Of a stretch of 64,000 bases of DNA, positions 3,974 through 17,733 are shown in pieces (positions within the stretch are counted from its first letter, which is position 1; every line of letters begins with the position of its first letter). The notes beneath the pieces were generated by a model. It had not been told where the DNA came from, searched no databases, and saw only the letters and a program-made list of their open reading frames with translations. The stretch comes from Marivirga aurantiaca. GTDB lineage: Bacteria; Bacteroidota; Bacteroidia; Cytophagales; Cyclobacteriaceae. Where the stretch lies: positions 310,001-374,000 of the forward strand of contig NZ_JAEQBW010000003.1 in the NCBI RefSeq assembly GCF_016679925.1. Direction: 5' to 3'. Both the position numbers and the translations under genes were made by a program.

Positions 3974-3981
3974 GTTAGCGG
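3974..3981 (+). repeat. First cassette boundary core (R'-like)
   Basis: GTTAGCGG marks the start of the first recognisable cassette. Its exact reverse complement CCGCTAAC is at 5145-5152, at the other end of the same cassette. Confidence 0.6.
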
Positions 3982-4011
3982 TCAGGCAACATCGATAATC
4001 TAAATACTTAA

Positions 4012-5094
4012 ATGAAATCATTAACATTTATTATTATAACATTTTTGACTCCAACTCTGTTTGCACAAGAAAATGCTCTTGTCGTTCTGGAGAAATATTA
4101 TAGTGCTATTGGTGGACAAAATAATATCAGCAAGATTGATAACATTTATTCATTTGCCGATTGTTCCGGACCAAACGGAAAATACCAAACTGAAGTATTT
4201 TCAGCCAAAGGATTCAAAACTTTTTTCAGACAGATACGAGAAAACAGACCAGATTATATTGGCATCGTTAATGGAAAAATCTATTGGACAAAAGGAGCAG
4301 ATGTTGCCATTTCTGACAAAAACACAGCATCAATGTGGCGTTCACACGAACTTCAATGGCTTGCAACTCATCTGACGGAAAGATTTCGGGAATATAAGTT
4401 TGAAGGAATTGAAGAATTTGCGGGGAAGCAGGCTATTAAACTTTCGGTTGTTGATGAACTAAGCAAAACAGCATATCTATACTTTGACAGTAACTCCTAT
4501 CTGTTTCAAGGCTTCACCATTTCAAATCCAGTTAGTAAAAATCCTGAGCTTATCCAGATGGTTATAAACACATGGGAAAAGGTTGACAAGCTTATGCTGC
4601 CAACTAATGTAACTTTCAGGGATAAAAATGGTGAGTACATTTTAAACTTTCATACCATAAAAATCAATCAGACTGACCCACGTGTTTTTGATATTCCCGA
4701 TAAAATTATTGCAATTCAAAAATTGCTTGAAATACACGAATTGCAACGCACGGCACATTTCAATCGCGATGCCAAATTATTGGTTTCCATCATGGTAGAA
4801 AATTTCACAGAAATCAGTAATGGAAAAATCAATTCACCTAAAAAGGAGGATCTTATAAAGAGATTTGAAAATTATTTTGATGCAGTTACATTCATCGAGT
4901 GGGATGATATAAACCCACCCATTATTAAAATTTCTGACGATGTTTCCATGGCGCATATGTATGTAAGCAAAAGAGTTAAGTTAAGAACTAAAGACCAGAC
5001 TGAAGAATTAACAACTTTTGCCTGGACATCAACTTTTCAGAAGGTAAACGGTAATTGGTTAATGACAAGTATAACATCCACTGTTGCTAATTAA
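4012..5094 (+). CDS. Exported two-domain protein, LolA-like N-half and SnoaL/NTF2-like C-half
   Basis: The protein has 360 residues with a signal peptide (1-18, ending LFAQ). Residues about 20-235 resemble the LolA/outer-membrane-lipoprotein-sorting type of beta-rich domain found in many Bacteroidota exported proteins (YYSAIGGQNNISKIDN, then many short strands). From about 245 to the end it resembles a DUF4440/SnoaL NTF2-like domain (RDAKLLVSIM, then WTSTFQKVNGNWLMTS). The ligand or reaction is unknown. It is the sole gene of the cassette bounded by GTTAGCGG at 3974 and CCGCTAAC at 5145. The start is the first ATG, 30 bp after the core. Confidence 0.5.
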   Translation: MKSLTFIIITFLTPTLFAQENALVVLEKYYSAIGGQNNISKIDNIYSFADCSGPNGKYQTEVFSAKGFKTFFRQIRENRPDYIGIVNGKIYWTKGADVAISDKNTASMWRSHELQWLATHLTERFREYKFEGIEEFAGKQAIKLSVVDELSKTAYLYFDSNSYLFQGFTISNPVSKNPELIQMVINTWEKVDKLMLPTNVTFRDKNGEYILNFHTIKINQTDPRVFDIPDKIIAIQKLLEIHELQRTAHFNRDAKLLVSIMVENFTEISNGKINSPKKEDLIKRFENYFDAVTFIEWDDINPPIIKISDDVSMAHMYVSKRVKLRTKDQTEELTTFAWTSTFQKVNGNWLMTSITSTVAN

Positions 5095-5144
5095 ACATAA
5101 CAGAAGAGACAATCAAAATACTATGATACTCCTAAAAGCCCGAA

Positions 5145-5218
5145 CCGCTAACAACGCATTACTTTTGATTAATTATTTTTTAGGAATAAAAGTAATGCTT
5201 TATAGCCAAGCGTTACAC
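5145..5218 (+). repeat. attC-like site 1
   Basis: It begins CCGCTAAC (complement of the cassette start at 3974) and ends AAGCGTTACAC. Internal arms GCATTACTTTT and AAAAGTAATGC are perfect inverted repeats, and AACAACGC and GCGTT extend the stem with an offset. The order of complementary outer core, bulged stem, loop and GTT core is that of integron attC sites; the cores depart from the classic RYYYAAC/GTTRRRY. Confidence 0.65.
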
Positions 5219-5227
5219 GGCATAAGT

Positions 5228-5971
5228 ATGCGAATATACTTTATAATATTATTTTTAATCATTTCACTTTCCTGCAATGGTCAGACAAATGAAAATGACT
5301 CACTTATTAAGGAGTATAACAAATTATCTCATGAAATAGATAATATTGAAAGAATCCTTATGGAACTTTCAAGAAAGGATGATTCTATTTACAACTTGAT
5401 AAGACGCAAAGAAACTAGAGTTAATAAAATCAATCCAGATTTTAATTATTCAGAGTACAAGGCTGCATATACCTTGTTTATTCAGAAATACCAAAATTAC
5501 ATCAAGAATGGAAACTTTCCTTCCTCAATACCAGTCGATATTTCTGATATGAGACAAATAATTGGTTATGGTGAAAAGATTCATCCAATTCTAATAAGCA
5601 CACGGTTTCACACGGGAATAGACATACCTTCTCCCAAAGGAATTCAAATTAAATCAACAATTAATGGAGAAGTAGAAGCTATTAAAAACGATTTTGGTGG
5701 ATTTGGAAAACATATTATTATTAAAAATTCACAGGACATAGAAATTCTTTATGCTCATTTAGACTCGATTTATTTAAAAGAAGGTCATAAAATTAAAATA
5801 GGAGAAGTCATTGGGACTGTAGGAAGCTCAGGAAGTACAACCGCTACAGGCCTTCACTATGAGATAAGAGTAAATGATAAACATATAAATCCGATATTTA
5901 CTTTCTCAGAAAGTCTTTCAGAAGAAGATTTGAAATATATATGGGATGTCAAAGAGCAAAGTTTAGATTAA
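5228..5971 (+). CDS. M23 (LytM) peptidase, lipoprotein
   Basis: I start this 247-residue protein at the ATG at 5228 because it places a lipoprotein signal (IISLSC, Cys16) at the N-terminus; the longer frame from 5084 would read through attC-like site 1 and is not credible. Residues 30-65 are helical and coiled-coil-like. The M23 domain covers about 110-228 with zinc ligands HTGID (His128, Asp132) and LHYE (His210), plus His177 in YAHL. All catalytic positions are present, so it should cut peptidoglycan peptide cross-links in the periplasm, or act on competitors if released. It is the only gene of its cassette. Confidence 0.85.
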   Translation: MRIYFIILFLIISLSCNGQTNENDSLIKEYNKLSHEIDNIERILMELSRKDDSIYNLIRRKETRVNKINPDFNYSEYKAAYTLFIQKYQNYIKNGNFPSSIPVDISDMRQIIGYGEKIHPILISTRFHTGIDIPSPKGIQIKSTINGEVEAIKNDFGGFGKHIIIKNSQDIEILYAHLDSIYLKEGHKIKIGEVIGTVGSSGSTTATGLHYEIRVNDKHINPIFTFSESLSEEDLKYIWDVKEQSLD

Positions 5972-5976
5972 TACTA

Positions 5977-6105
5977 TTTACAACACGAGGTTAAAAACAA
6001 TGGCGATTTTGCAGGTAGTGAGATATTTTCGCATTTTGTTACCTTTATTTATGGCCGACATATAGGGCTTTTAGTCCGCCACAGTTTTTGACCCAATCGT
6101 TACCT
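5977..6105 (+). repeat. attC-like site 2
   Basis: The site begins TTTACAACACGAGGTT and ends AATCGTTACCT. The left arm AACACGAGGTTAAAAACAATGGCG pairs imperfectly with TCCGCCACAGTTTTTGACC...CGTT, with extrahelical bases. Its left arm is nearly identical to that of attC-like site 5 at 13015. Unlike most units, its outer core does not complement the start of its own cassette (GTTACACGG at 5212). Confidence 0.6.
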
Positions 6106-6117
6106 GTAATTTAAGAC

Positions 6118-6615
6118 ATGACTCCGAAAAAAAAAGCTCTTTTGATAAGTACCGTTTTCTTAATTTGCATAATTGGAGCATTTTATTCGATTCTGAACTG
6201 GGGCTATCTACCGTTTCAAAATTATGATTACGGAACTTCATTTAACGAAAAACGGCTTACATTAGGACAACCAATCATCGAGGATTATTTCTATGATAAA
6301 ACTCCAAGTTGGGACGTAAGAAAAGTATGGCTGACACCAGACTCATTAAAAGGTAGGTATATACACTTCAGTAAGCTATATTGGACAGAAAAAGGCAAAA
6401 TTACATTGGAGAAAGACTTTTACGACCCAATTGATGAAACACCAATTGACACTGTCCTAATAAGAAATTATTACTATTTGAATGACTCAGTAGGCTATCA
6501 AATAACAGCAAGTAAAGACAGGATAACAATATTTAGTGATACACTATCAATAGACCAGTTTGACAGTGTAAAGAATGCTTGGACTGGAAAATTAACAGGT
6601 AATACTAGGCTATAA
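6118..6615 (+). CDS. Membrane-anchored hypothetical cassette protein
   Basis: I do not recognise this 165-residue protein. It has a Lys-rich start, one membrane segment at about 8-27, and then a polar domain rich in Tyr, Asp and Thr that should lie outside the inner membrane. It is followed after only 3 bp by a second membrane protein. Both are enclosed by a perfect 12-bp inverted pair, GTTACCTGTAAT at 6099-6110 and ATTACAGGTAAC at 7191-7202, so they form one two-gene cassette. The start ATG is 7 bp after the core sequence. Confidence 0.6.
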   Translation: MTPKKKALLISTVFLICIIGAFYSILNWGYLPFQNYDYGTSFNEKRLTLGQPIIEDYFYDKTPSWDVRKVWLTPDSLKGRYIHFSKLYWTEKGKITLEKDFYDPIDETPIDTVLIRNYYYLNDSVGYQITASKDRITIFSDTLSIDQFDSVKNAWTGKLTGNTRL

Positions 6616-6618
6616 ACA

Positions 6619-7185
6619 ATGTACGAACTTTACCTTGATAAAATTAGCATTAAAGAGAGCAAGCAGAAAGAACGACTTGTATACAAAAAACATGATTGGT
6701 TAGACGATTTAAATATTCCTATTCTCATCCTAATTTCCCCAATTATTTGGTTCTCAAAAGTTCTTTATGAAAGAACAGGATTAGTAAATAATGAAATTTT
6801 GATTCATATAGTAGCATTGCTATTATTATTTATTGGTTTAATATCATTATATAGAAATCTTTCAAAAATTTGGGAGCTCAAATCCATTGAGACAAAGTCT
6901 CCAAAAGAAATTAATAGGCAGAAAATTTTAAGTATTTCGGAGGAACTTGGTATTGAAATATATAAGAATAATAGAGATTTTTTTATTGGCGTTCATAACA
7001 AATCCTCTCCCTTTTCACAAATCATTACAATCATATATTCTAAAAACAAGATATTATTTAACGCTCGAAATAATTGTATCGGATATAATGGAAAACTAGG
7101 TAGACCTCCATTCGGTCTTAATTTAGCAAAGAAGTTATTTGAGGTTTATAGAAAAGAGATAGAATCAAAAGTATTAGGTTCATAA
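6619..7185 (+). CDS. Hypothetical membrane protein, second gene of a two-gene cassette
   Basis: An unrecognised protein of 188 residues. A short N-terminal cytoplasmic stretch is followed by two hydrophobic segments (about 30-50 and 58-80), then a basic soluble C-terminal half of about 100 residues with short strands. It follows the preceding gene after 3 bp, suggesting co-translation and a shared task. The gene ends 6 bp before ATTACAGGTAAC, the right core of the cassette. Confidence 0.55.
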   Translation: MYELYLDKISIKESKQKERLVYKKHDWLDDLNIPILILISPIIWFSKVLYERTGLVNNEILIHIVALLLLFIGLISLYRNLSKIWELKSIETKSPKEINRQKILSISEELGIEIYKNNRDFFIGVHNKSSPFSQIITIIYSKNKILFNARNNCIGYNGKLGRPPFGLNLAKKLFEVYRKEIESKVLGS

Positions 7186-7190
7186 TAATG

Positions 7191-7202
7191 ATTACAGGTA
7201 AC
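7191..7202 (+). repeat. Right core of the two-gene cassette; attC-like site truncated
   Basis: ATTACAGGTAAC is the perfect complement of the cassette start at 6099-6110. The rest of an attC stem is not evident because the shared upstream module of the eCIS-type cargo gene begins about 5 bp later. Confidence 0.55.
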
Positions 7203-7207
7203 ATCAG

Positions 7208-7371
7208 CTATGAATGGGGCTTCATCAGTTAGGAAAGTTTGGTGGCATTTGCAAAGTCAGCTACAATGTGTAAATTTATTCCGATAGGCTGTCGGAATGC
7301 TGTGGCTGTGAACGGATGGAAGCTTGGTGCTCATCATAGCAAGCGTTACCAAAACCTAAAAAGAAAGAACT
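7208..7371 (+). promoter_or_regulatory. Conserved upstream module of eCIS-type cargo genes, copy 1
   Basis: About 160 bp nearly identical to 8258-8424 and largely to 19466-19672. It runs from CTATGAATG..TTCATCAGTTAGG through a TTCCGATA..TCGGAA hairpin to AAAAGAAAGAAYTATG. Identity continues into the first 40 codons. Such strong non-coding conservation points to a shared promoter or leader RNA, or to a recombination tract. Antisense open frames here are shadows. Confidence 0.7.
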
Positions 7372-8208
7372 ATGAATACTTACGCTGACAAAACGAAAGA
7401 GAATAAAAGTCAATCGGTTTCTGCCGTGAACTCGCAGATTCAGAGCAGCAGTGAGTCTACTTTTCAGTTTGTAGATAATAGACCTGAAGCTGCTCAACTT
7501 CGGAAGTTACAAACTTTGATGAAGCCCAATATCGAAAATAATTCAAGTAGAGTAACTCAATTAACTCGTATGCTCCAAGTACAAAAAATCCCTGATGAAG
7601 AAGACAAGAAACTGTTTAAACAAGGTCTTAAGAAATTTGGGGCTACCCAGATAGTAAATTATACAAAACGTGATCCAACTATTAAAGATGATGAGACCAT
7701 AATCCTGGTTGCGCATGGAAACACTAATGAAGTTGGTGATGAAGAAGATCAAGAAGGTAGTTTAAGTTATAAACCAGATGAAATTGCTAGGATGTTAAAT
7801 ACTATTGTTCCTGATACTTGGCATGGTGAATTCATACTAAGGTCATGCGATGCAGCGGTTACACCAGTTGGCGGAAGTTCATTTCTTCAAAGAGTAAGAG
7901 AAAGCTTCCTACAATTACGACCACACCATCAAGGTGTCATGAGTGGGCCAGCGGGCACCATAGATTATAAAATGACTCAGAATGCTAAAGTTTTAATGGA
8001 ACGATTCAAAGGGGACGAAGAAGATAGCCGAGATGTTCCTTATAAATCTGCCATGGTTAAGTTTCATCCTGGAGGGGCCTCTAGTTTTCCTGGTAATCAT
8101 GTTGATGATGATTGGACTAACACCATGTCAAGTAATGAACTTAGAGCATGGTGGAATCGCGCCAAAAGTGGAGAAGGTGTCAGAGTTCAACCCGACCACA
8201 TGAAATAA
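7372..8208 (+). CDS. Putative eCIS cargo: leader plus caspase/CPD-like His-Cys domain
   Basis: The 278 residues open with the leader shared by three genes in the window: a polar Ser/Gln-rich stretch, then [12 protein letters not shown] at about 29-40 and a KLQ segment. There is no signal peptide. The C-terminal part (about 80-278) has ILVAHGN (His115) and LRSCDAA (Cys159) after predicted strands, the order found in the caspase-fold peptidase C80/CPD group, with SSFLQRVRE afterwards. A proteolytic effector or self-processing role is therefore likely but not proven. DUF4157 is absent. The shared leader suggests loading by a contractile injection apparatus encoded elsewhere. The start follows AAAGAAAGAACT, where all three copies agree. 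Confidence 0.55.
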   Translation: MNTYADKTKENKSQSVSAVNSQIQSSSESTFQFVDNRPEAAQLRKLQTLMKPNIENNSSRVTQLTRMLQVQKIPDEEDKKLFKQGLKKFGATQIVNYTKRDPTIKDDETIILVAHGNTNEVGDEEDQEGSLSYKPDEIARMLNTIVPDTWHGEFILRSCDAAVTPVGGSSFLQRVRESFLQLRPHHQGVMSGPAGTIDYKMTQNAKVLMERFKGDEEDSRDVPYKSAMVKFHPGGASSFPGNHVDDDWTNTMSSNELRAWWNRAKSGEGVRVQPDHMK

Positions 8209-8240
8209 GCCACAATACAGAGGAAATTAAAATTAGAAAT

Positions 8241-8249
8241 GCCTATAAC
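8241..8249 (+). repeat. Isolated attC-like left core
   Basis: GCCTATAACA followed by CTGTATGC matches the left end of attC-like site 4 (GCCTATAACAATGTATG at 9848). Directly after it the next cargo-gene upstream module begins, so only the left half is present. Confidence 0.4.
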
Positions 8250-8257
8250 ACTGTATG

Positions 8258-8424
8258 CTATGAATGAATGGAATTTCATCAGTTAGGAAAGTTTGGTGGC
8301 ATTTGCAAAGTCAGCTACAATGTGTAAATTTATTCCGATAGCTGTCGGAATGCTGTGGCTGTGAACGGATGGAAGCTTGGTGCTCATCATAGCAAGCGTT
8401 ACCAAAACCTGAAAAGAAAGAATT
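8258..8424 (+). promoter_or_regulatory. Conserved upstream module of eCIS-type cargo genes, copy 2
   Basis: Nearly identical to 7208-7371 with a few substitutions and one-base differences, including the TTCCGATAGCTGTCGGAA hairpin and the AAAAGAAAGAATTATG ribosome-binding region. Confidence 0.7.
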
Positions 8425-9759
8425 ATGAATACTCACGCTGACAAAGCACAAGAGAATAAAAGCCAATCGGTTGCTGCATCTAGTTCTCAGATACAGAGCA
8501 GCAGTGAGTCTACTTTTCAGTTTGTAGATAATAGACCTGAAGCAGTTGCTCAAAGAAAGCTACAAGAAATGGCTAACAATAGCCCTCAAGCCAAACAAGC
8601 AGCTCAATTGCAGGCAATGGCTGATAACTCTTCTTTGCAACAAAGACAAGCCATCCAAAAGAAAGTAAACAATACAGGCTTACCTGACAACCTAAAATCT
8701 GGGATTGAAAACCTTTCTGGTTATTCAATGGATGACGTAAAGGTGCACCGTAATTCTGATAAACCTGCGCAGTTGCAAGCTCATGCCTATGCACAAGGCA
8801 CTGATATTCATTTAAGTCCGGGGCAAGAAAAACATTTACCTCATGAAGCCTGGCATGTGGTGCAACAAAAGCAAGGACGAGTGAAACCTACCATGCAATT
8901 GAAAGGGAAAGTGAATGTAAATGATGATGCTGGATTAGAAAAAGAGGCGGATGTGATGGGAGCCAAGGCACTTCAGGAAAATTCTAATACCTCGTCCAAA
9001 ATAAGCGATAAATATCTCGAAAATGAAGGAGTTCAGCAATTGATGTCACCATATAAACCCAACAGCTTTAATATTCCAATTGTACAACGCGAGGTGAAGT
9101 TCTATTGGGATCCAAGGATAAATCATTGGGGTGCATTTGAAGATGAACAAGAACCAGTTGGTTATGCCGTTCATAGAACTGGAGAACAAATTGAATTCGA
9201 TTTTACTCGTTGGTACACTGATCAAGTCTATTGGCAATGGTGGCAAGATCAAATGGGCGATGCTCCTGAAGAGTACAGACAGGAGGTGCCTGATGTTGTT
9301 CCAGCTGTTCCAGCTGTACCAGTTGTCGCACCCGAAGAAGAACAAGAAGTAGCAGCTCCTGCTCTTGCGGCAGTTGCTCAAGCGCCAGTTCAGGCAGCTC
9401 TTGTTTTTAATGCTCCCGTCAACATCGAGGGCGGCTATTCTCAAATTACCGCTACAGCTGGGGGAGTAGTTGTAGGTCGCGCTAATTATAGTAGGGGAGC
9501 AACCGCTATTCCAGGAGGGAATGGAGAGACGGGCATCGAACTATCAGAAGTATTTGTTGATCAGAATTATAGAGGTAGTGGTTATAGCACTCAAATCTTA
9601 GAGCATACAATTGGAGTGATTGGTTTTGCAACAACAATATGGCTTGATGCTCAATCACATGGTGGCTTAAATCAAGCTAATCTTTCTAATTGGTATGGAC
9701 GTCATGGGTTTGAAGCTACAGGGCATGGAAGCATCATGAAGACGGTTCCTTTCATGTAA
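8425..9759 (+). CDS. Putative eCIS cargo: leader, DUF4157 and GNAT acetyltransferase domain
   Basis: The 444 residues read as four parts. Residues 1-50 are the shared leader with [10 protein letters not shown]. About 40-80 hold short Gln-rich repeats ([20 protein letters not shown]). About 85-182 are a DUF4157 (eCIS core) domain with HEAWH at 140-144 followed by VVQQ, the zincin-like motif of the family. Then comes a divergent segment with many Trp, a Pro/Ala/Val-rich linker (about 288-325), and a C-terminal GNAT fold with motif A at NYRGSGYS (381-388). The GNAT part would acetylate a target amine and is the likely toxic or modifying unit. DUF4157 proteins are known associates of eCIS loci; no eCIS structural gene is present here. 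Confidence 0.75.
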
Positions 9760-9847
9760 TGGTCTGTCTTATAATTATGCGGCAAATAAAGCCAAGATTA
9801 GATTCTAAAAGGTAGCGAGAGTGAATATGGCTATACAAACAACAAGA

Positions 9848-9903
9848 GCCTATAACAATGTATGTACGGCATTAAAACGACCGTTTATACCAATCGTTAA
9901 CGG
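9848..9903 (+). repeat. attC-like site 4
   Basis: It begins GCCTATAAC and ends ATCGTTAACGG. AACAATGTATGTACGG pairs with CCGTTTATACC..AATCGTT around a loop CATTAAAACGA, with bulges. It is the shortest site of the array. Confidence 0.6.
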
Positions 9904-9933
9904 TCAGGCTAAAAACGATATAATGGAATTGAT

Positions 9934-10287
9934 ATGACACCAAAAGATGTTTTACTAAAATGGATTGACGCATTTAACAAGGCGGATTTAGAAACAATTT
10001 CAGATTTGTATGCTGATAATGCAGTCAACCATCAAGTAGCAAACGACCCCGTTGTTGGCAAACCTGCAATCATGGAAATGTTTAAAGGAGAATTTGAGAC
10101 AGCCGAAATGACGTGTATTCCTGAAAACATATTTGAAGATGGTGAATGGGCAATTTTAGAATGGAAAGACCCAAACGGACTACGTGGGTGCGGATTTTTT
10201 CAGATAAAAAACGATAAGATTGTATTTCAACGTGGCTATTGGGATAAACTCTCATTTTTAAAACTCCACAATTTACCGATTGAATAA
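9934..10287 (+). CDS. SnoaL/NTF2-like small protein
   Basis: A 117-residue cytosolic protein without a signal. The sequence (WIDAFNKADLETISDLYAD, then NHQVANDPVVGK and a FQIKNDKIVFQRGYWD end) is typical of the SnoaL-like branch of the NTF2 fold, in which a cone-shaped barrel binds a small ligand or catalyses a ring or hydration reaction. The precise reaction is unknown. The cassette begins with GTTAACGG at 9896, but the matching right core is missing: after the gene come the direct repeats at 10313 onward, so the downstream end of the cassette appears to have been replaced. Confidence 0.7.
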   Translation: MTPKDVLLKWIDAFNKADLETISDLYADNAVNHQVANDPVVGKPAIMEMFKGEFETAEMTCIPENIFEDGEWAILEWKDPNGLRGCGFFQIKNDKIVFQRGYWDKLSFLKLHNLPIE

Positions 10288-10312
10288 GGATATGAATATT
10301 AAGTTTATTTAT

Positions 10313-10434
10313 CATGTCGGCACCTCAAAGAGGTCAGACATATTTAAGTACTAAAAGAGGTTTGGCTAAGGAATTAAACTGGCTTTGTGCTAACCTGAGA
10401 TGTCTGACGTTTTCAACGTTCCGACATCGGTTGA
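10313..10434. repeat. 120-bp direct repeat E, copy 1
   Basis: Matches 10579-10698 almost exactly. Each copy contains inverted words ATGTCGG..GTCAGACAT and ATGTCTGAC..GTTCCGACAT and so can form hairpins. A further related word (GGTCAGACGGTAGTCAGACC) lies at 10459-10478 between the copies. No coding capacity. Confidence 0.85.
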
Positions 10435-10578
10435 ACATAAAGCCAGTAGATACTTAGGTCAGACGGTAGTCAGACCGGAAATGGGCTATAAAACACTATT
10501 TTCTACAGGGATGGGGTAAAACTTTCCAAATTGCAAGGGATTAGACTATTCAAATGTCTTCAAAAATAATGCATCCTC

Positions 10579-10698
10579 CATGTCGGCACCTCAAAGAGGT
10601 CAGACATATTTAAGTACTAAAAAGGTTGGCTAAGGAATTAAACTGGCTTTGTGGTAATCTGAGATGTCTGACGTTTTCAACGTTCCGACATCGGTTGA
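10579..10698. repeat. 120-bp direct repeat E, copy 2
   Basis: Second copy of 10313-10434, 266 bp downstream in the same orientation, with small deletions (AAAAGG for AAAAGAGG). Confidence 0.85.
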
Positions 10699-10776
10699 AG
10701 CTGAGTGCGGGCTATTCCCTTACAGAAGGGAATTTTTTCATTTAAACCCGTGGTTTAAATATTTCCAACCACCAAA

Positions 10777-10846: not shown

Positions 10847-11030
10847 CCCGGGCGAAATTCAGGCTTCCCGGGGCACCTTTGGTGCTTCCCGGGAGCCGGG
10901 AGTACTGTAAATTCACCCGGGACGGGTATATATTCACCCGGGAAAGGTTCCAACTTACCCGGGAAGCCTGCTAACTCTCCCGGGAAGGGTAACATTGAGC
11001 CGGGAGGCTTAACAATTTACCCGGGAGGGT
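10847..11030 (+). repeat. Tandem array of ~21-bp CCCGGG units
   Basis: CCCGGG or GCCGGG starts at 10847, 10867, 10888, 10895, 10916, 10937, 10958, 10979, 10999 and 11020. The steps are 20, 21, 7, 21, 21, 21, 21, 20 and 21. In the + frame the units read as Pro-Gly heptads (PGTGIYS, PGKGSNL, PGKPANS, PGKGNIE), but two or three one-base shifts break the frame and no start codon gives a continuous protein. It is either a decayed heptad-repeat gene or a non-coding array of palindromes spaced two helical turns apart. Confidence 0.85.
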
Positions 11031-11130
11031 TTTTAATCCTGAAATAGCTTTGCAGTGCCCCCTCATTTTCAGAAGATTAATTGAAAAGTAAGATGCCCTT
11101 GGATGTCAGGGGAAATTGCTTTTTTGACAC

Positions 11131-11318
11131 TTTCCCTCATTTTAGTGCAAGAAGTACTACCTACATATAGGTATTTTGCCATGCTATTCGATGAATATTT
11201 AGGGTTTGATGCAGGAATCACTTATGTTCAACACTTTGATTACAGTAACCGGCATAAAGCTGTGTGTAAATGTTGGTAAGCGTTTACACTCGTTGGATGT
11301 TGGTTAATTAAAAATATA
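11131..11318. repeat. Dispersed repeat C, copy 2
   Basis: Same element as 3750-3936, ending 39 bp before the GTTGGC core that starts the next cassette. Includes TACCTACATATAGGTA. Confidence 0.75.
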
Positions 11319-11387
11319 AGGCAAATATGTGTACCGGGAGGTACACTTAGCCGGATGTTGGCCTGAATTATAAAACCACAAGCATAA

Positions 11388-12425
11388 ATGGAAAATAACG
11401 ATACAAAAGTCTTAAACCTCTATCCTATAGATTACCCTTTTGAAACATTGGTTGGAAGGGTCAACTCTAAACCTCCGAAGTTAATCTTGAATCCTGATTT
11501 TCAAAGAAAATACAAATGGGATAAAGAAGGTTGGGAGCGCGCCTCACGCTTCATTGAATCTTGCTTAATGCGAATACCGCTTCCTGCCTGTTATTTTGCT
11601 GAAACTGATGATGGGAAACAACTTGTAATTGATGGAGTGCAGAGGATTACAACAATCAGTAAATTTTTCAATGATGAATTTGCATTGGAAGGGCTATCAA
11701 CATTCAAAGAACTCGAAGGGAAAAAGTTTTCCGAGATTGGAGACTATCAAAATGAATTAGAAAGCACAACAATAAGGTGCATTATTCTTAGGAAAGAAAA
11801 TCCTAAATTCCTTATTCAGGAAATTTTCTCTAGACTTAATCAAGGTGCTGTAAGTCTTTCTAATCAAGAAATTAGACATGCAATATACCAAGGTAAGTTA
11901 GATGATTTGCTTTCAGAGTTAGCTAAAACAAATTTAATCAAGGAGTTTGGAATTGGTCAAAACAGCCAAAGAGAAAAAAACAGTTTGGAAGGAGAAGAAC
12001 AGGTGTTAAGGTTTTTTGCTCTTCAAGAAGACTTAAGTGAGTATCAAGACAAGCTAAATAAGTTTCTTGATAAATACATGGAACAAAATCAAAACCCATC
12101 AGAAGAAAGAATATCTGAGCTAAGGGAGTTGTTTAACTCATCACTTCAACGGGTACTTACTGTATTTGGAGATGAAGCTTTCATAGATGTCAATAAGGAC
12201 AGAAAAAGACAGAGTATGGTTTACTATGACCTTTTGATGTGGAGTTTCTCTGAAAAATCAGATAAGTTTATTGAATTGAATAAATCTGAAATTAGAGAGA
12301 AATTTAAAGAATTATGTGCTAATGAAGAACTTCAAAGAACCTTATCTGGTGGATTACAGAATAAATCATCAATTTTGAAAAGAAGAGAATTGTGGGAAAA
12401 TAAATTGGATGAAATTGATGGCTGA
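11388..12425 (+). CDS. DUF262 (GmrSD N-terminal-like) protein
   Basis: This 345-residue cytosolic protein has the DUF262 hallmarks: NPDFQRKYKWD at 35-45 and DGVQR at 82-86 (family DGQQR), followed by a helical region. DUF262 has a ParB/Srx-like nuclease or NTPase fold and forms the N-half of type IV restriction enzymes such as GmrSD. Here the DUF1524 HNH half is absent and the protein ends in a helical domain. It overlaps the next gene (HEPN-like) by 17 bp, implying translational coupling. The pair fills one cassette between GTTGGC at 11357 and GCCAAC at 13017. A defence or toxin role is inferred from the partner domains. Confidence 0.75.
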   Translation: MENNDTKVLNLYPIDYPFETLVGRVNSKPPKLILNPDFQRKYKWDKEGWERASRFIESCLMRIPLPACYFAETDDGKQLVIDGVQRITTISKFFNDEFALEGLSTFKELEGKKFSEIGDYQNELESTTIRCIILRKENPKFLIQEIFSRLNQGAVSLSNQEIRHAIYQGKLDDLLSELAKTNLIKEFGIGQNSQREKNSLEGEEQVLRFFALQEDLSEYQDKLNKFLDKYMEQNQNPSEERISELRELFNSSLQRVLTVFGDEAFIDVNKDRKRQSMVYYDLLMWSFSEKSDKFIELNKSEIREKFKELCANEELQRTLSGGLQNKSSILKRRELWENKLDEIDG

Positions 12426-13011
12426 ATCAAGTATATATTCTGACTATAGTAGTCAACTTGAGAAGCTAAAAGATATAGTTGACAAAACCAGCACTAAAAG
12501 TGTTATTGAAAGTCCTGATCCCTATTTTGGGGATAACATAAATTTTTTCACAAAATCATTTTTAGTAAATATCTGTGCCTATTTGGAGTCCTTTATCAAG
12601 GATGTAACATTTTCCTGCATAGAAAATATAAACACAAGAATTGAATCAAGTAAAATTCCTCATAACCTCATTCTATGGGATTTGAACTATGACAAGGAGA
12701 TTAAAGAAAAGTCCTACAGCTTCAGTAATTTGAAGGTCCGTATCAAGAAAAAAGATTTAGATGAACATATTTCGGGAAGCCCTTTTAGAACTATAAAGTT
12801 ATTTAGAAATATTGGAATAAATCTTGAAACTAATGCTGACTTTAACAGCTGCAAGGAAAGAATAAATATGATAGTTGTAAAACGGAATAAGATACTTCAT
12901 CACAATGATGATGCGTCAGACATTTCCTTCTCCGACATTATGCAGTACATAGATGAGATTGATAAATACATGAAAACATTAGATAAATGTATTGAAGAAA
13001 TGAAAAAATAA
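12409..13011 (+). CDS. HEPN-like (RiboL-PSP-HEPN / MAE_28990 type) protein
   Basis: The 200-residue, almost wholly helical protein has a HEPN RNase motif Rx4H at 159-164 (RNKILH, followed by HN), in the usual place before the last helices. An upstream helix with YLESFIKDV (about 58-66) fits the RiboL-PSP-HEPN pattern. HEPN domains with this motif are metal-independent RNases in toxin-antitoxin and abortive-infection systems. It starts inside the end of the DUF262 gene; ATG at 12418 is an alternative start with an 8-bp overlap. The two products probably work together. Confidence 0.7.
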   Translation: MKLMAESSIYSDYSSQLEKLKDIVDKTSTKSVIESPDPYFGDNINFFTKSFLVNICAYLESFIKDVTFSCIENINTRIESSKIPHNLILWDLNYDKEIKEKSYSFSNLKVRIKKKDLDEHISGSPFRTIKLFRNIGINLETNADFNSCKERINMIVVKRNKILHHNDDASDISFSDIMQYIDEIDKYMKTLDKCIEEMKK

Positions 13012-13014
13012 CAG

Positions 13015-13149
13015 ATGCCAACACGAGGTTAAAAACAATGGCGGTTATGCAGTTAATGGAAATATTATAGCTTTTTGCTACCTTTATCAAGGGCGGAAAG
13101 TGAAGTGCTATTAATCCGCCAAAGTTTTTTAGCCATATCGTTGTGGCAC
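13015..13149 (+). repeat. attC-like site 5
   Basis: It begins ATGCCAACACGAGGTT, where GCCAAC complements the cassette start GTTGGC at 11357, and ends ATCGTTGTGGCAC. AAAAACAATGGCGG pairs with CCGCCAAAGTTTTTT, and CAACACGAGGTT pairs with AGCCATATCGTTGTG. It is closely related to attC-like site 2. Confidence 0.7.
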
Positions 13150-13161
13150 ATATAAAAAAAG

Positions 13162-13659
13162 ATGACGAATAAGATTTGGTATGAAATGACTAACATAAAG
13201 TACGGAGAAATTTATCTGACTAAATATCTCGGACTTCAACGTACTTTGAAAAAAGTATTTCAAATTTTGACACTTATCGTCTCTTTGAGTGGAATACTCG
13301 GATGGAAATATTTTGAGGATTATGTTTGGATTGCTTTTATTCTTATAGCTATTGTTCAGCTTTTGTTGCTTATTGAGAATCAAATAATCCGTTCCGATAA
13401 AGAAATTGAGGAGATTTCTAATTTGAGAATGATGTACACAAGATATTTCAATAAACTTGAACGCCTTTGGACTAAATATCACTACGACCAAATAAAAGAC
13501 AATAAGGCAATGGATAAATATTTCGAGCTTCGACAGTCCGATTGGGAGAATATCGAAGAACTTGATTGCAAATTGAGTATCAAGCGATATAAAAAACTGA
13601 TTGAACATACAGAAATTGAAACAAATCATTATTTAAATAAATATCATATCAATGGCTAA
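13162..13659 (+). CDS. Hypothetical membrane protein of a cassette
   Basis: An unrecognised 165-residue protein. After about 35 polar residues there is a hydrophobic stretch of two closely spaced membrane helices (about 36-54 and 60-77), then a soluble helical tail rich in charged residues that may be a coiled coil (KEIEEISNLRMMYTRYFNKL). The tail should be cytoplasmic. It overlaps by 8 bp a small Pro-rich gene, so the two are probably translated together. The cassette starts GTTGTGGCACAT at 13140 and ends ACGTGCCAACAAC at 13891; the two are complementary apart from one inserted base. Confidence 0.6.
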   Translation: MTNKIWYEMTNIKYGEIYLTKYLGLQRTLKKVFQILTLIVSLSGILGWKYFEDYVWIAFILIAIVQLLLLIENQIIRSDKEIEEISNLRMMYTRYFNKLERLWTKYHYDQIKDNKAMDKYFELRQSDWENIEELDCKLSIKRYKKLIEHTEIETNHYLNKYHING

Positions 13660-13786
13660 ACAAGAGAGACCAAGCAAACCTCAAGGAATACCGAGAAATA
13701 ATCCAGGAGGCGGAGAACCAAAACCAAAAGGGCAAGTCCCTTCAATGAGAAATCCACCACCACCTCCACCAAAGAAAAAAGACTAA
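13652..13786 (+). CDS. Small proline-rich protein, 44 residues
   Basis: ATGGCTAAAC starts inside the stop region of the previous gene and the frame runs 44 codons. The product is basic and Pro/Lys/Gly-rich, with PQGIPRNNPGGGEPKPKG and a terminal PPPPPPKKKD, so it should be unstructured. No family is recognised. The 8-bp overlap with the membrane protein gene and its place within the same cassette argue that it is real. It might be a ligand or regulator of its partner; that is a guess. Confidence 0.5.
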   Translation: MAKQERPSKPQGIPRNNPGGGEPKPKGQVPSMRNPPPPPPKKKD

Positions 13787-13890
13787 GGCGGGCTTGGCGG
13801 ATTTTGCATTCTCGGAACACCAAATTCAGATTTACACCTTTGACAGGTTCGATTATCTGAAATTCAATGACCGAAGAAAAAACAAAAAAT

Positions 13891-14029
13891 ACGTGCCAAC
13901 AACGGGTATTGCAAATGCGGGTTTATGTCTTAAATTCATAGTTTCTCGTATTTAATTAAAGTTATTGCGGGCTGACAGTTACGAGTTTCAAAATCCCGTA
14001 CTTGCCATAGCCCAGATCGCTATATGCTA
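13891..14029 (+). repeat. attC-like site 6
   Basis: It begins ACGTGCCAACAACGGG and ends ATCGCTATATGCTA. AACGGGTATTGCAAATGCGGG pairs with CCCGTACTTGCCATAGCCC, with bulges. The expected GTT core at the right end reads GCT (14019), a mutated core. Confidence 0.6.
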
Positions 14030-14061
14030 TTTGAAGCCGATACATAAACAGAAATCGAAGT

Positions 14062-14712
14062 ATGGAAAAAGGACTTTTTGAAAAGATATTTATGGGCAAT
14101 TTGAATAAGAATTTTCAAAGCCGTTCCAAATATTTTGATTTTGAATTTTATGTATTTAGTGAATTAGGAGGAATTGTATTTGAAATCAACAAATGCTTAA
14201 TTCTCGAATTTCACAGAGCTTCAATCACTTTGACGAATAATTTGCTTGAAAGACTTTTAAAACTATCATTAATTTATGACGAAGCTGGGATTGGACCAAA
14301 ACCTGTTGAAGACTGGGGTGCTACTTTTGCGGGACCGAATAAAAAATACAGTTCAATTTCATTAGGAAACTCGATTGAAAAATGTAAGAAACTTGACTTA
14401 GTAACAGAAAAGGAGAAAGCATTTCTTTTCGACACAATTCGAGAATTAATGAGAAACGGTTTCTCTCACGCAGACTCAAGTAAAATTTTAAATGGAATAC
14501 CTGACGAAACGACAATGTTTCAAGGCAGTTTTTCAAACCCGACAGAAATTAAACCTGTGACGGTAAACCAGAAAATAATTCCGTTTATGCAGGCAGTACA
14601 TATTGAGAATTTCGCAAAAGAAAATGCTGCGAACTATTTCGACTACGTATTTGAACTAATAAAAAAAATAGACCAACGACTAATTGACAGAAATAAAAAA
14701 ACTAGCATATGA
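14062..14712 (+). CDS. Hypothetical helical cassette protein
   Basis: I do not recognise this 216-residue soluble protein. It is mainly helical. The middle (LLERLLKLSLIYDEAG at about 68-83) and a later helix with RNGFSHAD (about 132-139) recall the general layout of HEPN/DUF4145-like proteins, but the catalytic Rx4-6H spacing is not clearly met, so I leave the function open. It is the only gene of its cassette (GCTATATGCTA at 14019, TAGCATATGAC at 14703; 9 of 11 bases complementary), and its stop codon overlaps the right core. Confidence 0.5.
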   Translation: MEKGLFEKIFMGNLNKNFQSRSKYFDFEFYVFSELGGIVFEINKCLILEFHRASITLTNNLLERLLKLSLIYDEAGIGPKPVEDWGATFAGPNKKYSSISLGNSIEKCKKLDLVTEKEKAFLFDTIRELMRNGFSHADSSKILNGIPDETTMFQGSFSNPTEIKPVTVNQKIIPFMQAVHIENFAKENAANYFDYVFELIKKIDQRLIDRNKKTSI

Positions 14713-14840
14713 CAGCAGCGACTCCAAAGTGGCGGTTCAGTGGTTAAATCAAGCTTTATGCTTCTATCAAAGTTTCTGCTTGGCTGACAGTGAAGTGCTT
14801 CGAAATCGGTACCTTCGGGTAGCTGCAAACCGTTATATTC
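14703..14840 (+). repeat. attC-like site 7
   Basis: It begins TAGCATATGACAGCAGCG and ends ACCGTTATATTC. GCAGCGACTCCAAAG can pair with CTTCGGGTAGCTGC through G-T pairs; the stem is weaker than in other sites. Confidence 0.45.
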
Positions 14841-14848
14841 AATAACCT

Positions 14849-15514
14849 ATGAAAACTATTCTCATTGCCTTACTTTTTATAGTCCCTTTATTAGGAAGAG
14901 CACAGTTTAGTTTTGAACCCAATTCTGACACAACAATATTCGATACTCCGCAAGATACTTCAGCTATATTTCAATACAAATTTATAGTGGCTAGTGCTTG
15001 GCACTTTTCTTCATACCTTGAGCTTACTTATAATCAAGATAGCACTTGGAGCTATAGCCGTACTGTTATCAGTAACATTGATAGTAAGCGAATTGAACTC
15101 CCACCCATCGATCCGCCTGTTAATGTAGATAAACTATGGAAGGAATTGATCAATGTAGAATTCTTAAATTTAAAAACAGAGGATGAGATCACTTATATAG
15201 TAACTAAAGACGGGAAGTACGTTGAACTACCTTTTGAAAAGTACCAAATGATGGGAGCTACTGATATGTCAAATTATGTATCTGAATTTTATAGTAAATT
15301 AGGCATCAGAACAATTATGCACTACGCCCCTATCGAAATGATGAGTAAGCTCCATCAATCTGATCAAACGTGGTATGTTCCTGAATTATATAAAGCAACC
15401 TTCTGCTACACACTAATACAGAACAAATTTCATTTTACAGATTATAGAAATGCATTCGCTGAATATTTTAAATCAATTAATGAAGATAAGTCGAAGAGAA
15501 AAAAAAGAAGATGA
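14849..15514 (+). CDS. Exported hypothetical protein
   Basis: A protein of 221 residues with a clear signal peptide (1-18, ending GRAQ) and no recognised domain. The mature part alternates short beta-strands and polar loops up to about 140 (NQDSTWSYSRT, ELPPIDPPVNVDKLW), then becomes helical, ending in a very basic KSKRKKRR tail. It is probably periplasmic. It starts 9 bp after the GTTATATTC core of its cassette. The right core (AGTGTTTAAC near 15541) complements the left one only over GTTA. Confidence 0.5.
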   Translation: MKTILIALLFIVPLLGRAQFSFEPNSDTTIFDTPQDTSAIFQYKFIVASAWHFSSYLELTYNQDSTWSYSRTVISNIDSKRIELPPIDPPVNVDKLWKELINVEFLNLKTEDEITYIVTKDGKYVELPFEKYQMMGATDMSNYVSEFYSKLGIRTIMHYAPIEMMSKLHQSDQTWYVPELYKATFCYTLIQNKFHFTDYRNAFAEYFKSINEDKSKRKKRR

Positions 15515-15540
15515 CATTCAGTATGAAATCATAGCTGATC

Positions 15541-15660
15541 AGTGTTTAACGACACTTTGCCCGTTGTAGAAAGCCCATCAATCCTGCGAATTGCCATAGT
15601 ATTAAACTGAAATTTTTGTACATTTAAAATAGCCAAGCTTCATACAGTGGCGTTAGCATT
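15541..15660 (+). repeat. attC-like site 8
   Basis: AACGACACT (15548-15556) pairs with AGTGGCGTT near the right end, which closes with GTTAGCATT at 15652. The middle of the stem is poorly paired. Confidence 0.45.
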
Positions 15661-15673
15661 AATATAGAGTACA

Positions 15674-16270
15674 ATGAGAGCAATCATATTAGTTTTTCAT
15701 TTGTTTTTAGCTATTATTTCTAGCTGTGGACAGACAACACAGAACGAAAAGCCTCCATTATCTAAAAATCCAAAAACTTTAGTCCCAGAGGTTCCCAAGA
15801 ACTCTTCCGACAAGATCAATTCTAAAGTACAAGTTTATGAGATTCTTCCCCGTGAATTAAACCTTGAGTATGTTAAAAAAGCAGATATAAACCTTGATGG
15901 CTATACGGATGCTATCGTTGTTTGCTCAAGAAAAGATTCTTTAAATTCAACCAGACCAGTTGTTATTTTCTATGGAAATTCTGAAGGAGACTATGACTAT
16001 ATAGAAAGGAATGACCATATTATATGTGATGGTTTTCAAAAAATAGTTGTAACCAAAAACTATTTCACATTCGAAAGTAGGATTGGAACAAAGATGGATT
16101 ACAGTCTGATATACAAGACTTTTATTGTAAAAGAAGATAGTATTTATTTCCATCGTTATGATGAAGAAATATATTCGGTTTACGACTACGACAAAGGAGG
16201 TAAATTAGATGAAAAAATAACGAAAAGAGCAGAAGAGTATGATTATCCTAGCTTCAAAGAATATAAATAA
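15674..16270 (+). CDS. Lipoprotein with a VCBS/FG-GAP-like segment
   Basis: The 198 residues begin with a lipoprotein signal (AIISSC, Cys18) and a Pro/Lys-rich linker to about 55. Then follows KADINLDGYTDAIVV (about 75-89), a Ca-binding FG-GAP/VCBS-like turn with DxNxDGxxD, and further beta-strands. The domain is only a single repeat, so it may be a degenerate or minimal form. No enzymatic motif was seen. The cassette is cleanly bounded by GTTAGCATTA at 15652-15661 and its exact complement TAATGCTAAC at 16268-16277, which overlaps the stop codon. Confidence 0.6.
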   Translation: MRAIILVFHLFLAIISSCGQTTQNEKPPLSKNPKTLVPEVPKNSSDKINSKVQVYEILPRELNLEYVKKADINLDGYTDAIVVCSRKDSLNSTRPVVIFYGNSEGDYDYIERNDHIICDGFQKIVVTKNYFTFESRIGTKMDYSLIYKTFIVKEDSIYFHRYDEEIYSVYDYDKGGKLDEKITKRAEEYDYPSFKEYK

Positions 16271-16514
16271 TGCTAACATATAATAAAACCCATTTGCTCA
16301 TCACCTTGTAGCAAATTGACTGCTAAATAGCCCGTAATTTATGCTTGCTTTTCATAGCTGGCAACCACAGATTGTGCTTTGGTCAAGTATAGTGTTTAAT
16401 TATTCTACGCTTTTGCAATTAATGAAGTGTATCTATTTGCGGAGAAAGCATAAATCACTACTTTCAGTATTTCATAGCCTAGTAAAACAAACGGGTTTTA
16501 TGTAGGCGTTATGC
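16267..16514 (+). repeat. attC-like site 9
   Basis: The long site (about 248 bp) begins ATAATGCTAAC and ends GGCGTTATGC. Near the base AATAAAACCCATTTG pairs with CAAACGGGTTTTAT; GCAAATTGACTGC-like words lie in the interior. No gene was found inside. Confidence 0.6.
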
Positions 16515-16531
16515 CTCGTATAAAAAAATCA

Positions 16532-17605
16532 ATGATGAAAAAGGTATTCCTATCTATTATTATCCTGCCCATTCTTTTACAATCCTGCAGTGGACAGACC
16601 AACAAAGGTGATTTACGAAATAAAGCCTCACAAAAGGAAATTGAAAAAAACAACACTTTAACTCAAAGTGATTTTAATGTTTTTCCAGGCACAAATGTAA
16701 ACGACCAAATAAGCCAGGTTGTAAGGACAATTTTTCAAGACAGCAAAGGGAATTTTTGGTTTGGAACACAAAACGGAGCATTTAGACTTACAGATAAATC
16801 ATTAACTCATATTGATAAAATCATTGGTGAGTCGGGAAAAGGTGTAACAATAAAAAAAATTACAGAAAGCAAGGATGGTAAAATATGGTTAGGACATTCA
16901 GATGGAATAAGCAGTATTGATGGAAATACTGTGACAAATTATTATGAATCTGATGGATTAATTAGCAATGATGTTTGGTCTATTGCTGCTGATAAAAATG
17001 GCAGGATATGGATTGGAACTATAGCCGGTGTTTGTGTTTTTAATGGTCAGGGGTTCACGGAATTTGTGCTTCCGGAAGGACAAGTAGATTCTACCTTGGG
17101 TGTTTCAAGTACAAAAATGGTTCATAGTATATTCGAAGATAGTAAGGGCACACTATGGTTTAGTTCTAATGCTGGTCTGTTTTCATACGCCAATAATTCA
17201 CTTATAAATGTTTCTAAAAAAGCAGGAATTCAAACGAATTTTGTCAATGAAATATTCGAAGATAAAAATGGTGAATTATGGGTATCAACAAAAAATGGAC
17301 TCTATCATTTAATCAATAATAAGGGAGAAAATATTACAAAAGGGAAAATTGAAACAGGAAAAGGGATAGGAAGCATAGCAGAAGACAAAGACGGTAATAT
17401 ATGGTTTGTTTCCAATCAACACCATTTATATTCTTATGATGGAAATGAACTCATCAAATTCCAAAAATCAGAATATAATAAAGGCCCGGGAGTTTTTCAA
17501 ATCTTTAAAGACCAGGACAATAGGCTTTGGTTCGTTGGATTTGGTGGTGCTTTTAGATTAGAAAACGGTATATTTATTAATGTAACTAAGAATGGACCAT
17601 GGTAA
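16532..17605 (+). CDS. Lipoprotein with two-component-regulator-type beta-propeller
   Basis: Starting at 16532 (MMKKVF) puts the lipoprotein signal at the N-terminus (LLQSC); the upstream ATG at 16511 sits inside the cassette core and adds seven odd residues. The rest is a propeller of Reg_prop repeats with the usual pattern IxxDxxGxxWFGT..G(V/L)xxxDG: DSKGNFWFGTQNGAF, SKDGKIWLGHSDGI, DKNGRIWIGTIAGV, DSKGTLWFSSNAGL, DKNGELWVSTKNGL, DKDGNIWFVSNQHH and DQDNRLWFVGFGGA. Seven blades form a complete ring. No Y_Y_Y, membrane or kinase part follows, so it is a free-standing surface or periplasmic ligand-binding lipoprotein. Cassette cores: GTTATGC 16508, GCATAAC 17616. Confidence 0.8.
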   Translation: MMKKVFLSIIILPILLQSCSGQTNKGDLRNKASQKEIEKNNTLTQSDFNVFPGTNVNDQISQVVRTIFQDSKGNFWFGTQNGAFRLTDKSLTHIDKIIGESGKGVTIKKITESKDGKIWLGHSDGISSIDGNTVTNYYESDGLISNDVWSIAADKNGRIWIGTIAGVCVFNGQGFTEFVLPEGQVDSTLGVSSTKMVHSIFEDSKGTLWFSSNAGLFSYANNSLINVSKKAGIQTNFVNEIFEDKNGELWVSTKNGLYHLINNKGENITKGKIETGKGIGSIAEDKDGNIWFVSNQHHLYSYDGNELIKFQKSEYNKGPGVFQIFKDQDNRLWFVGFGGAFRLENGIFINVTKNGPW

Positions 17606-17613
17606 AATTGCGA

Positions 17614-17733
17614 ACGCATAACAGTACCTATACGCAAGCAGGGCTTAAGTGCTTCTATGAAAGTGAAGTGCTAAATCCAAGCTTTGTACTTTTAATGAAG
17701 TTCAGTGCTAAAACTCCCACTTGCGTGTTCTTT
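17614..17733 (+). repeat. attC-like site 10, last of the array
   Basis: It begins ACGCATAAC, complementary to GTTATGC at 16508. TACGCAAGCAGGG pairs with CTCCCACTTGCGTG at 17713-17726, followed by GTTCTTT. No further cassette follows; repeat A copy 3 comes next. Confidence 0.5.

Follow-up and report, generated by a model that had tools for sequence, protein, structure and literature searches.

Two cassette arrays in the genome of Marivirga aurantiaca (Bacteroidota), at 3974 to ~9.9 kb and 11357 to ~17.7 kb of a 64,000-nucleotide stretch (the window; contig NZ_JAEQBW010000003.1, positions 310,001 to 374,000), are with high probability integron-like. Each would stand behind a dock of its own, a leader followed by an attI-like site, and was likely filled by a recombinase that sister Marivirga species keep. 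An earlier interpretation of the letters alone (the sequence-only reading) had proposed one integron-like array at 3974..17733, belonging to a divergent lineage or to a different cassette system of Bacteroidota. This proposal is supported by the sites, by their linkage to a recombinase and by the movement of cassettes. The cassettes are there, but they form two arrays, each preceded by its own leader of ~200 bp, closed by a hairpin plus a GTT core (at 3974 and 11357). The leader/attI platform heading each array, of which the genome holds 21, had not been foreseen. The array genes, as had been stated, all point the same way (+ strand) and are mutually unrelated, representing diverse Pfam families (M23 peptidase, SnoaL-like, GmrSD N-domain with HEPN_RiboL-PSP, eCIS_core with GNAT, Reg_prop and DUF4440). 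For 7 of the 14 array open reading frames (ORFs) scanned there was no Pfam match, and Rfam gave nothing at its gathering threshold. Labels beginning with G, C and L are our handles for genomes, contigs and loci.

Complementary ends of cassettes

The core consensus of classical integrons is GTTRRRY. The cores found here, such as GTTACACGG, GTTATTTAC and GTTGTAGCT, do not follow it, in agreement with the sequence-only reading; GTT and, mostly, R at position 4 are conserved and nothing more. Many cassettes open with a core of 9–10 nt (R'), the reverse complement of which (R'') closes that same cassette. The pairs initially noticed in the window do exist: 9 consecutive nt at 3974/5150, 12 nt at 6099/7200, 10 nt at 15652/16275, 7 nt at 16508/17620 and 6 nt at 11357/13020, with near-matches of 8/10 at 14019/14711 and 7/10 at 13140/13900. 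Among the 11 window units, three match at 9–10 of 10 positions, two at 8, three at 7 and three at 5. By chance, a 60-position search reached at least 9 in 10 of 3000 runs and 8 in 132 of 3000.

Complementary ends are also more frequent than in controls outside these units. A complement of at least 9 nt lies within 4 kb of 10/18 leader-borne GTT cores in this genome, compared with 87/2518 random GTTs; three of the 21 leaders, which have no GTT core (L034 and two in L046), were left out of this count, and one locus (L038) offers only 266 bp downstream. In 93 attC clusters from 11 integrase loci, a match of at least 9 nt was found for 51/93 start/end pairs of the same cassette and for 58/956 mismatched pairs. 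At 20 array sites with a 9–10 nt match to their own start, the same end pairs with the start of the next cassette over 3–6 nt only; these sites were picked for that match, and the own-pair values are not evidence in themselves. Since the ends match their own start and not that of the next cassette, the R stem would be complete only in the excised circle.

Folding and recurrence of attC-like sites

A simple scan for outer and inner stems gave three and one matches on the two window strands, and a position-specific scoring matrix of the core barely beat the opposite strand (63 versus 53 hits at score 9, 25 versus 12 at score 11). Because both were weak, cassette-wise complementarity was used instead. 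The attC-like sites fold as bulged hairpins with the bottom strand favoured, a feature shared with classical integrons: the bottom strand was the more stable in 28/32 sites (Wilcoxon p 3.5e-7) and, in the array form, in 26/32. Four sites folded singly had z-scores of -4.4 to -6.4. Across 15 sites in circle form, 94.7% of cells were paired and 48 double changes occurred, where shuffled sequences gave 63% and 14; the 15 sites were partly, and the 32 mostly, chosen through their own complementarity, and own-pair values are not themselves evidence.

The bulged stem-loops pointed out between units are real. Window spacers recur across the genus, family and order, where they lie between other genes (at most five candidates per genome were scored), and in the same searches the eCIS_core-type module was the only coding part to match related genomes. 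The site at 16.3–16.5 kb has more than 30 matches of at least 200 bp at 75–91% identity, most of which begin near AAC and end at GTT or at most ~10 bp before it.

Movement of cassettes

Comparison between species and within arrays revealed units in new places with edges at GTT; by sequence comparison, then, cassettes move as units in the manner of classical integrons. One cassette of ~855 bp occupies three places of a single G005 array at 99.65–100% identity and with different neighbours. In G009, three cassettes occur at two or three places each (100% identity), the repeated cassettes of the two genomes being about 490–865 bp long. G005 and G009 also have a 645-bp cassette in common, at 100% identity. 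In the cases from these two genomes that were inspected at base level, the identical stretch starts at the G of GTT or 1–2 bases before it, and ends 3–4 bases past the G of GTT. A 718-bp match between G003 and G004 (99.2%) overruns the GTTs by 10–15 bp.

The L248 platform of M. aurantiaca lies inside a 6.1-kb stretch between genes that are 70–75% identical to those of relatives. Its flanks are 28–165 bp apart in G002, G003, G004, G006 and G009, 566 bp apart in G001 and far apart in G005 and G008. The L248 cassette starting GTTGTGCACAAG, closed by a 10-nt core, matches a G008 cassette at 96.5% identity from GTT on; the genes flanking it show ~71% identity to G008. At a second platform, L246, the flanks are rearranged between genomes and uninformative.

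A recombinase beside the first site

The tyrosine recombinases of the M. aurantiaca genome are, typed by eye, XerD-like, XerC-like, a conjugative-transposon-type integrase and one fragment; no intact integrase of the cassette type was found in this genome. The 53-residue fragment (C30:448.7k, 75 kb after the window) aligns with residues 326–378 of a sister enzyme 379 residues long; it is 70% identical and contains one stop. Directly behind it stand a leader-type hairpin and GTTATAGGC, and the first cassette at this site (L271) has a 10-nt closing core. The search for a recombinase yielded a remnant in this genome, but sister species keep the enzyme immediately before a site of this type: a hairpin, GTT-N7-AT (attI) and long arrays come after the recombinase gene and share its direction. 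Open frames of the enzyme span 285–492 aa in the genus, family and order. An attI beside the integrase, as in classical integrons, is present in relatives. In classical integrons the integrase gene is usually divergent from the cassettes, whereas at the relatives' loci the two are co-directional.

At 12 loci, a GTT core lies 37–159 bp past the recombinase stop, in the same direction and behind hairpins, with a complement of 9–13 nt downstream; four other tyrosine recombinases of the same loci have only 7–8 nt. Taking the best GTT in 260 nt is weak alone, as random windows reach 9 nt in 70/300 cases on the same strand and 84/300 on the opposite one. A stricter rule, the first GTTN7AT 20–170 nt past the stop, was derived afterwards on the same 12 loci; 11/12 then have 9–10 nt, compared with 7/139 opposite-strand control positions, again above the control.

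For new loci the limits of the rule were widened to 15–220 and -3 to 220 nt. A relative of the enzyme at E 1e-40 occurs in 91/296 Bacteroidota genomes drawn. Among the best 30 loci, 28 integrases were located (L149 and L160 were dropped for want of one; L142, L145 and L146 have <250 bp downstream), of which 14/28 follow the rule with at least 9 nt and 15/28 with at least 8 nt. The matches listed also included 80 named loci; 78 were scored (without L181 and L185), 17 of them with <1.2 kb downstream. In the remaining 61, with at least 1.2 kb, the rule holds for 6/21 Bacteroidota (Seonamhaeicola aphaedonensis, Aequorivita sinensis, a Rufibacter, a Pontibacter, a Flavobacteriaceae genome and a Bacteroidetes metagenome-assembled genome, MAG) versus 1/40 others, a Spirochaetota MAG. 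Winogradskyella ursingii, Flavobacterium aciduliphilum, a Mediterranea and a Flavobacteriales MAG have 9–12 nt at another nearby core. L173, L187 and L231 reach 9–11 nt at other GTTs, which look chance-like by eye. The layout recurs across Bacteroidota.

Several observations concern the surroundings of these enzymes. An SSB gene (Pfam) adjoins the remnant (L011 9173-9508), and SSB-like frames stand directly behind the integrases of two other genomes (L074, L077; by eye), a possible link to single-stranded substrates. A divergent small frame with a Cys-rich start precedes the integrases in L054, L055, L063, L065, L069 and L072 (by eye); between it and the integrase lies a palindrome with AAACGTTT, copies of which occur at dispersed platforms. 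Upstream, the DNA of G005 and G009 (L084, L087) is 94% identical, but around the integrase BLASTN aligns no more than 188 bp (71%), a pattern that an exchange of the integrase might leave. A Rufibacter tibetensis plasmid (L309 8113-8751) displays the same layout: GTTGGCAAAAAT follows the integrase at a distance of 131 bp, and after another 506 bp comes a closing core of 10 nt. The Acinetobacter baylyi plasmids pJAT2044 and pHH1107 (L306 3632-3822, L307 4708-4898) encode a relative of the integrase that is short at its N-terminus, shares 53% identity over residues 147–378 and lies 190 bp upstream of tet(X3); a hairpin and GTTATGTGCCAT come 171 bp past its stop. A closing core for this site did not turn up in 3.5 kb, and tet(X3) may at most be suggested to derive from a cassette.

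Leaders and dispersed platforms

The M. aurantiaca genome (5,010,637 bp, 36 contigs, 99.98% complete) contains 20 matches to the first leader of the window (leader A) at 19 places. In the window and the 16 loci around these matches, a profile matched 26 times: 21 matches are leaders in array direction, and the remaining five are weak and on the opposite strand. Leader homology comprises a palindrome TACCTACATATAGGTA, 10-bp repeats TTTGTANNCG, one of several hairpins and GTT, with unrelated sequence beyond; copies range down to 70% identity. At E 0.001 no leader was found in nine other genomes of the genus, and a 25-nt leader pattern had zero exact matches across genome contigs, from which the M. 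aurantiaca genome was perhaps excluded. The leader was also considered as a cassette itself and rejected by eye, as there is no R'' inside. Leaders look promoter-like by eye and are predicted to be promoters. The palindrome may be akin to a 7-2-7 response-regulator operator, and the repeats of 10 bp to arm-type sites or a shared operator.

Copies of attI that lack an integrase are likewise dispersed over the chromosome in the integrase-bearing G004, G005, G006 and G008. The intact integrase frame of G008 is accompanied by 13 further matches to its attI, nine of them over 43–49 bp. Eight of the nine share a leader that is unlike the M. aurantiaca one; its 10-bp repeats are of the same kind but oppositely oriented. 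Four have a 9–10 nt closing core within ~1.5 kb of sequence, and two have ATT for GTT. A convincing copy of the genome's own attI (E <1e-6) is present in 6/12 attC-match regions of G003–G006 and G009 and in 3/4 regions chosen by attI match (G005, G008), and an integrase match is absent from 15 of these 16 regions. Six platforms were read closely. Five have a 9–10 nt closing core, two still have the 3' end of the integrase gene within a kept stretch of 86–93 bp, and two carry a 40–42 nt copy of the integrase promoter palindrome. The simplest reading is that dispersed platforms are integrase-deleted copies of the integron head.

Relationship of the enzyme to IntI

The enzyme matches PF00589 and PF13495 in Pfam. 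It scores 218 and 219 bits with NCBIfam NF040815 (cut-off 220), and 209 and 195 bits with TIGR02249, the model for IntI (cut-off 265), where the match is split in two and ~180–240 is missing. Between the two matched pieces there are 65 residues in IntI4 and 22 in the enzyme; the relatives' enzymes do not have the additional domain of IntI. This domain is reported as necessary for integron recombination in the part of the source that we draw on (PMC9668308). The best solved relatives are IntI4 (2a3v, 2.6e-38) and the XerA-type 4a8e (5.5e-38). An AlphaFold2 model (pLDDT 83.7, pTM 0.58) has an extra N-terminal alpha/beta domain (~1–76), and Foldseek ranked 2a3v first for it. A tree of 44 proteins groups 12 IntI in a single clade (100/100) that excludes the 26 Bacteroidota enzymes, and does not settle how these stand to Xer; placement inside the IntI clade was not observed, with an IntI sample that is narrow, since all came from a single search with the G034 IntI and lie near one Bacteroidetes IntI. 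That genome, from the same family, has a true IntI (303 bits, above the cut-off; L092, G034:C13) as well as one of the other, non-IntI enzymes (L093). The system is integron-like and not a classical integron, and its enzyme most resembles IntI and XerA in sequence and fold. We infer that it would act like an integron integrase.

Layout of the window arrays

All features below are on the + strand. Leader A (3767..3943), one of the 21 genome copies, is a predicted promoter/operator region with the palindrome and 10-bp repeats described above. It is followed by attI-like site A (3944..3985), a hairpin with core GTTAGCGGTCAG; leader homology stops at GTT. Cassette A1 (3974..5211; DUF4440 ORF 4012-5094, Pfam) has 9-nt R'/R'' and an attC at 5143..5211 (bottom-strand fold z -5.7, circle form). 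Cassette A2 (5212..6098) encodes the M23 peptidase (5231-5971) and has lost its R'/R'' match (5/10); its attC (5977..6098) matches in genus genomes and is related to the site at 13011. Cassette A3 (6099..7344; ORFs 6118-6615 and 6619-7185, no Pfam match) has 12-nt R'/R'' and an attC at 7191..7344 with partial matches in relatives. The attC of cassette A4 (7345..8397; ORF 7372-8208; R'/R'' 5/10), at 8239..8397, is 96% identical to the preceding site. Cassette A5 (8398..9895; R'/R'' 5/10) carries the eCIS_core + GNAT ORF 8425-9759, as if injection-system cargo travelled as cassettes, and a candidate attC (9845..9895) with attC-like arms and core by eye. For cassette A6 (9896..10290; SnoaL-like ORF 9934-10287) no closing end was found.

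Immediately before leader B, at 10308-11040, we noticed by eye a direct repeat (about 10310 and 10577) and then a CCCGGG-rich stretch. Leader B (11148..11324) is 88% identical to leader A and precedes attI-like site B (11325..11368; hairpin, core GTTGGCCTGAAT). Cassette B1 (11357..13139) encodes GmrSD_N (11388-12425) and HEPN_RiboL-PSP (12409-13011) proteins (Pfam); its R'/R'' are 6 nt (7/10), and its attC (13011..13139) matches in genus genomes. Cassettes B2 (13140..14018; ORF 13162-13659; R'/R'' 7/10) and B3 (14019..14831; ORF 14062-14712; R'/R'' 8/10, core GCT) end in attC at 13892..14018, matched in G045, and at 14704..14831, with matches of up to 139 bp in the family and order. Cassette B4 (14832..15651; ORF 14849-15514; R'/R'' 7/10) has an attC at 15506..15651 that matches in genus genomes, and cassette B5 (15652..16507; ORF 15674-16270; 10-nt R'/R'') has one at 16266..16507 of the common long type of the genus. 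Cassette B6 (16508..17730) encodes the Reg_prop protein (16511-17605, Pfam) with 7-nt R'/R''; its attC end is unsure, and part of it matches relatives.

A leaderless attC-like copy with ORF 19673-20683 (19469..20683) contains pieces 88–90% identical to 7201-7372. The proteins of 7372-8208, 8425-9759 and 19673-20683 have a common N-terminus, and their genes share ~120–165 bp of upstream DNA (pieces of 88–96% identity). Palindromic repeats such as GGTCGGTGGCGCACCGACC occur in the window at 1187-1260, 1416-1480 and 17890-17965, and further intergenic repeats at many places in this and related genomes, L248 5954-6298 among them.

Discussion

We propose that a cassette would be excised as a circle, that the attC bottom strand of this circle would fold on its R and L stems, and that the integrase would join the folded attC to attI. 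Since joining would take place at attI, the newest cassette would adjoin the leader, its predicted promoter. A single integrase would act in trans on every platform. In M. aurantiaca the integrase appears to have been lost with 21 leaders left, and the arrays are probably frozen and decaying. As to a distributed integron, in which one tyrosine recombinase would carry out integron chemistry without the IntI domain and serve many scattered promoter-attI platforms, the platforms would be integrase-deleted heads building co-regulated sets of captured genes, and the N-terminal extension of the enzyme may read the 10-bp leader repeats as arm-type sites, we consider the chances of this whole picture to be about even.

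A number of observations weigh against the integron-like interpretation. The window units starting at 5212, 7345 and 8398 match at 5/10, the chance level; 8/18 leader cores have no 9-nt match, and neither do 42/93 array pairs, some array clusters not being true neighbours. The folding count of 28/32 includes related sites. The integrase rule fails for 14/28 integrases of the best-30 set and for 15/21 Bacteroidota among the named loci. The enzyme is without the domain reported as necessary for integron recombination, in the consulted part of that source (PMC9668308), and recombination itself is deduced from comparing sequences alone.

It might be argued that the dispersed leader/attI copies are dead relics, left by duplication or insertion of the integron head, and that the integrase-borne attI alone works. 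The M. aurantiaca genome, with no intact integrase, 8/18 leader cores without a partner and leader copies down to 70% identity, fits such a view. However, several dispersed attI in integrase-bearing species are 92–100% identical to the integrase-borne attI over 37–62 nt, and a 9–10 nt cassette core is present at 5/6 platforms read and at 4/9 in G008; we regard relics as possible, if on the unlikely side. That the system is a classical integron with an unrecognised IntI appears improbable. Although attI, attC and cassettes are alike and IntI4 is the best solved relative, the enzymes reach 209 and 195 of 265 bits and miss the additional-domain region, while the true IntI of G034 reaches 303; moreover, the clade of 12 IntI (100/100), sampled near one Bacteroidetes IntI, does not include the 26 Bacteroidota enzymes.

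Two further alternatives dispense with a dedicated integrase. XerC/XerD, both kept in M. aurantiaca as XerC-like and XerD-like proteins, might move the units at dif-like sites, as in pdif-type modules; judged from unit edges and gene order rather than from a dif scan, this is very improbable, given that the edges lie at GTT behind hairpins and that a different recombinase immediately precedes the first site in relatives. No more credit can be given to leaders and spacers as dispersed repeats of the kind of miniature inverted-repeat transposable elements or repetitive extragenic palindromes, with the arrays an accident of insertion. Indeed, the leader is a dispersed repeat and the genome has many other intergenic repeats, but cassette-specific complementary cores and whole units moving from GTT to GTT would be left unexplained.

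Taken as integron-like, the system shares with chromosomal integrons attI beside the integrase, tandem same-strand cassettes, exchange at GTT, and attC sites that have R and L arms and fold better as the bottom strand. It departs from them in an enzyme that has no IntI insertion and groups apart from the IntI clade, in an integrase co-directional with the cassettes, in an attI with a hairpin and also in dispersed copies, and in a GTTN7AT core with a 9-bp cassette-specific stem. We know of no dispersed attI in Spirochaetota integrons. The unusual integrase orientation is shared with these, where IntI is generally in reverse orientation, but their enzymes are IntI proteins, as far as the passages used of that paper go (PMC9668308). 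As in CALIN, clusters of attC sites lacking integron-integrases (PMC8618304, PMC9024848, as described in the portions cited), the window arrays are attC clusters without a neighbouring integrase; unlike CALIN, each examined window cluster starts with an attI-like site and a leader. The complete integron named for Bacteroidetes proper in the part of the IntegronFinder 2.0 paper used here (PMC9024848) is that of Salinibacter ruber M1, of the same phylum in a broad sense; it differs in having been found with IntI profiles. Also close are the integron-like tyrosine-recombinase subgroup (PMC8138268) and NCBIfam NF040815, where the enzymes score 218–219 with a cut-off of 220; the sections of PMC8138268 consulted describe no cassettes, attI or attC for such enzymes. 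Source names including 'site-specific tyrosine recombinase/integron integrase' indicate that the resemblance was already noted in annotation.

The system is unreported in the open PMC papers searched, a search that lay outside preprints and most subscription papers and does not assure priority. We consider the most novel element to be the attI platforms that stand without an integrase at scattered chromosomal places, including in four species that do bear the enzyme. Scattered platforms would separate the integrase from its docking sites, an arrangement that, to our knowledge, is known in no integron. With a strong relative of the enzyme in 91/296 Bacteroidota genomes and a cassette headed at 14/28 of the best loci, a large pool of mobile cassettes could escape IntI-based searches. 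The need for the IntI domain becomes directly testable. Finally, given the truncated relative that lies 190 bp upstream of tet(X3) on a plasmid of Acinetobacter, genes may have reached other phyla through systems of this kind.

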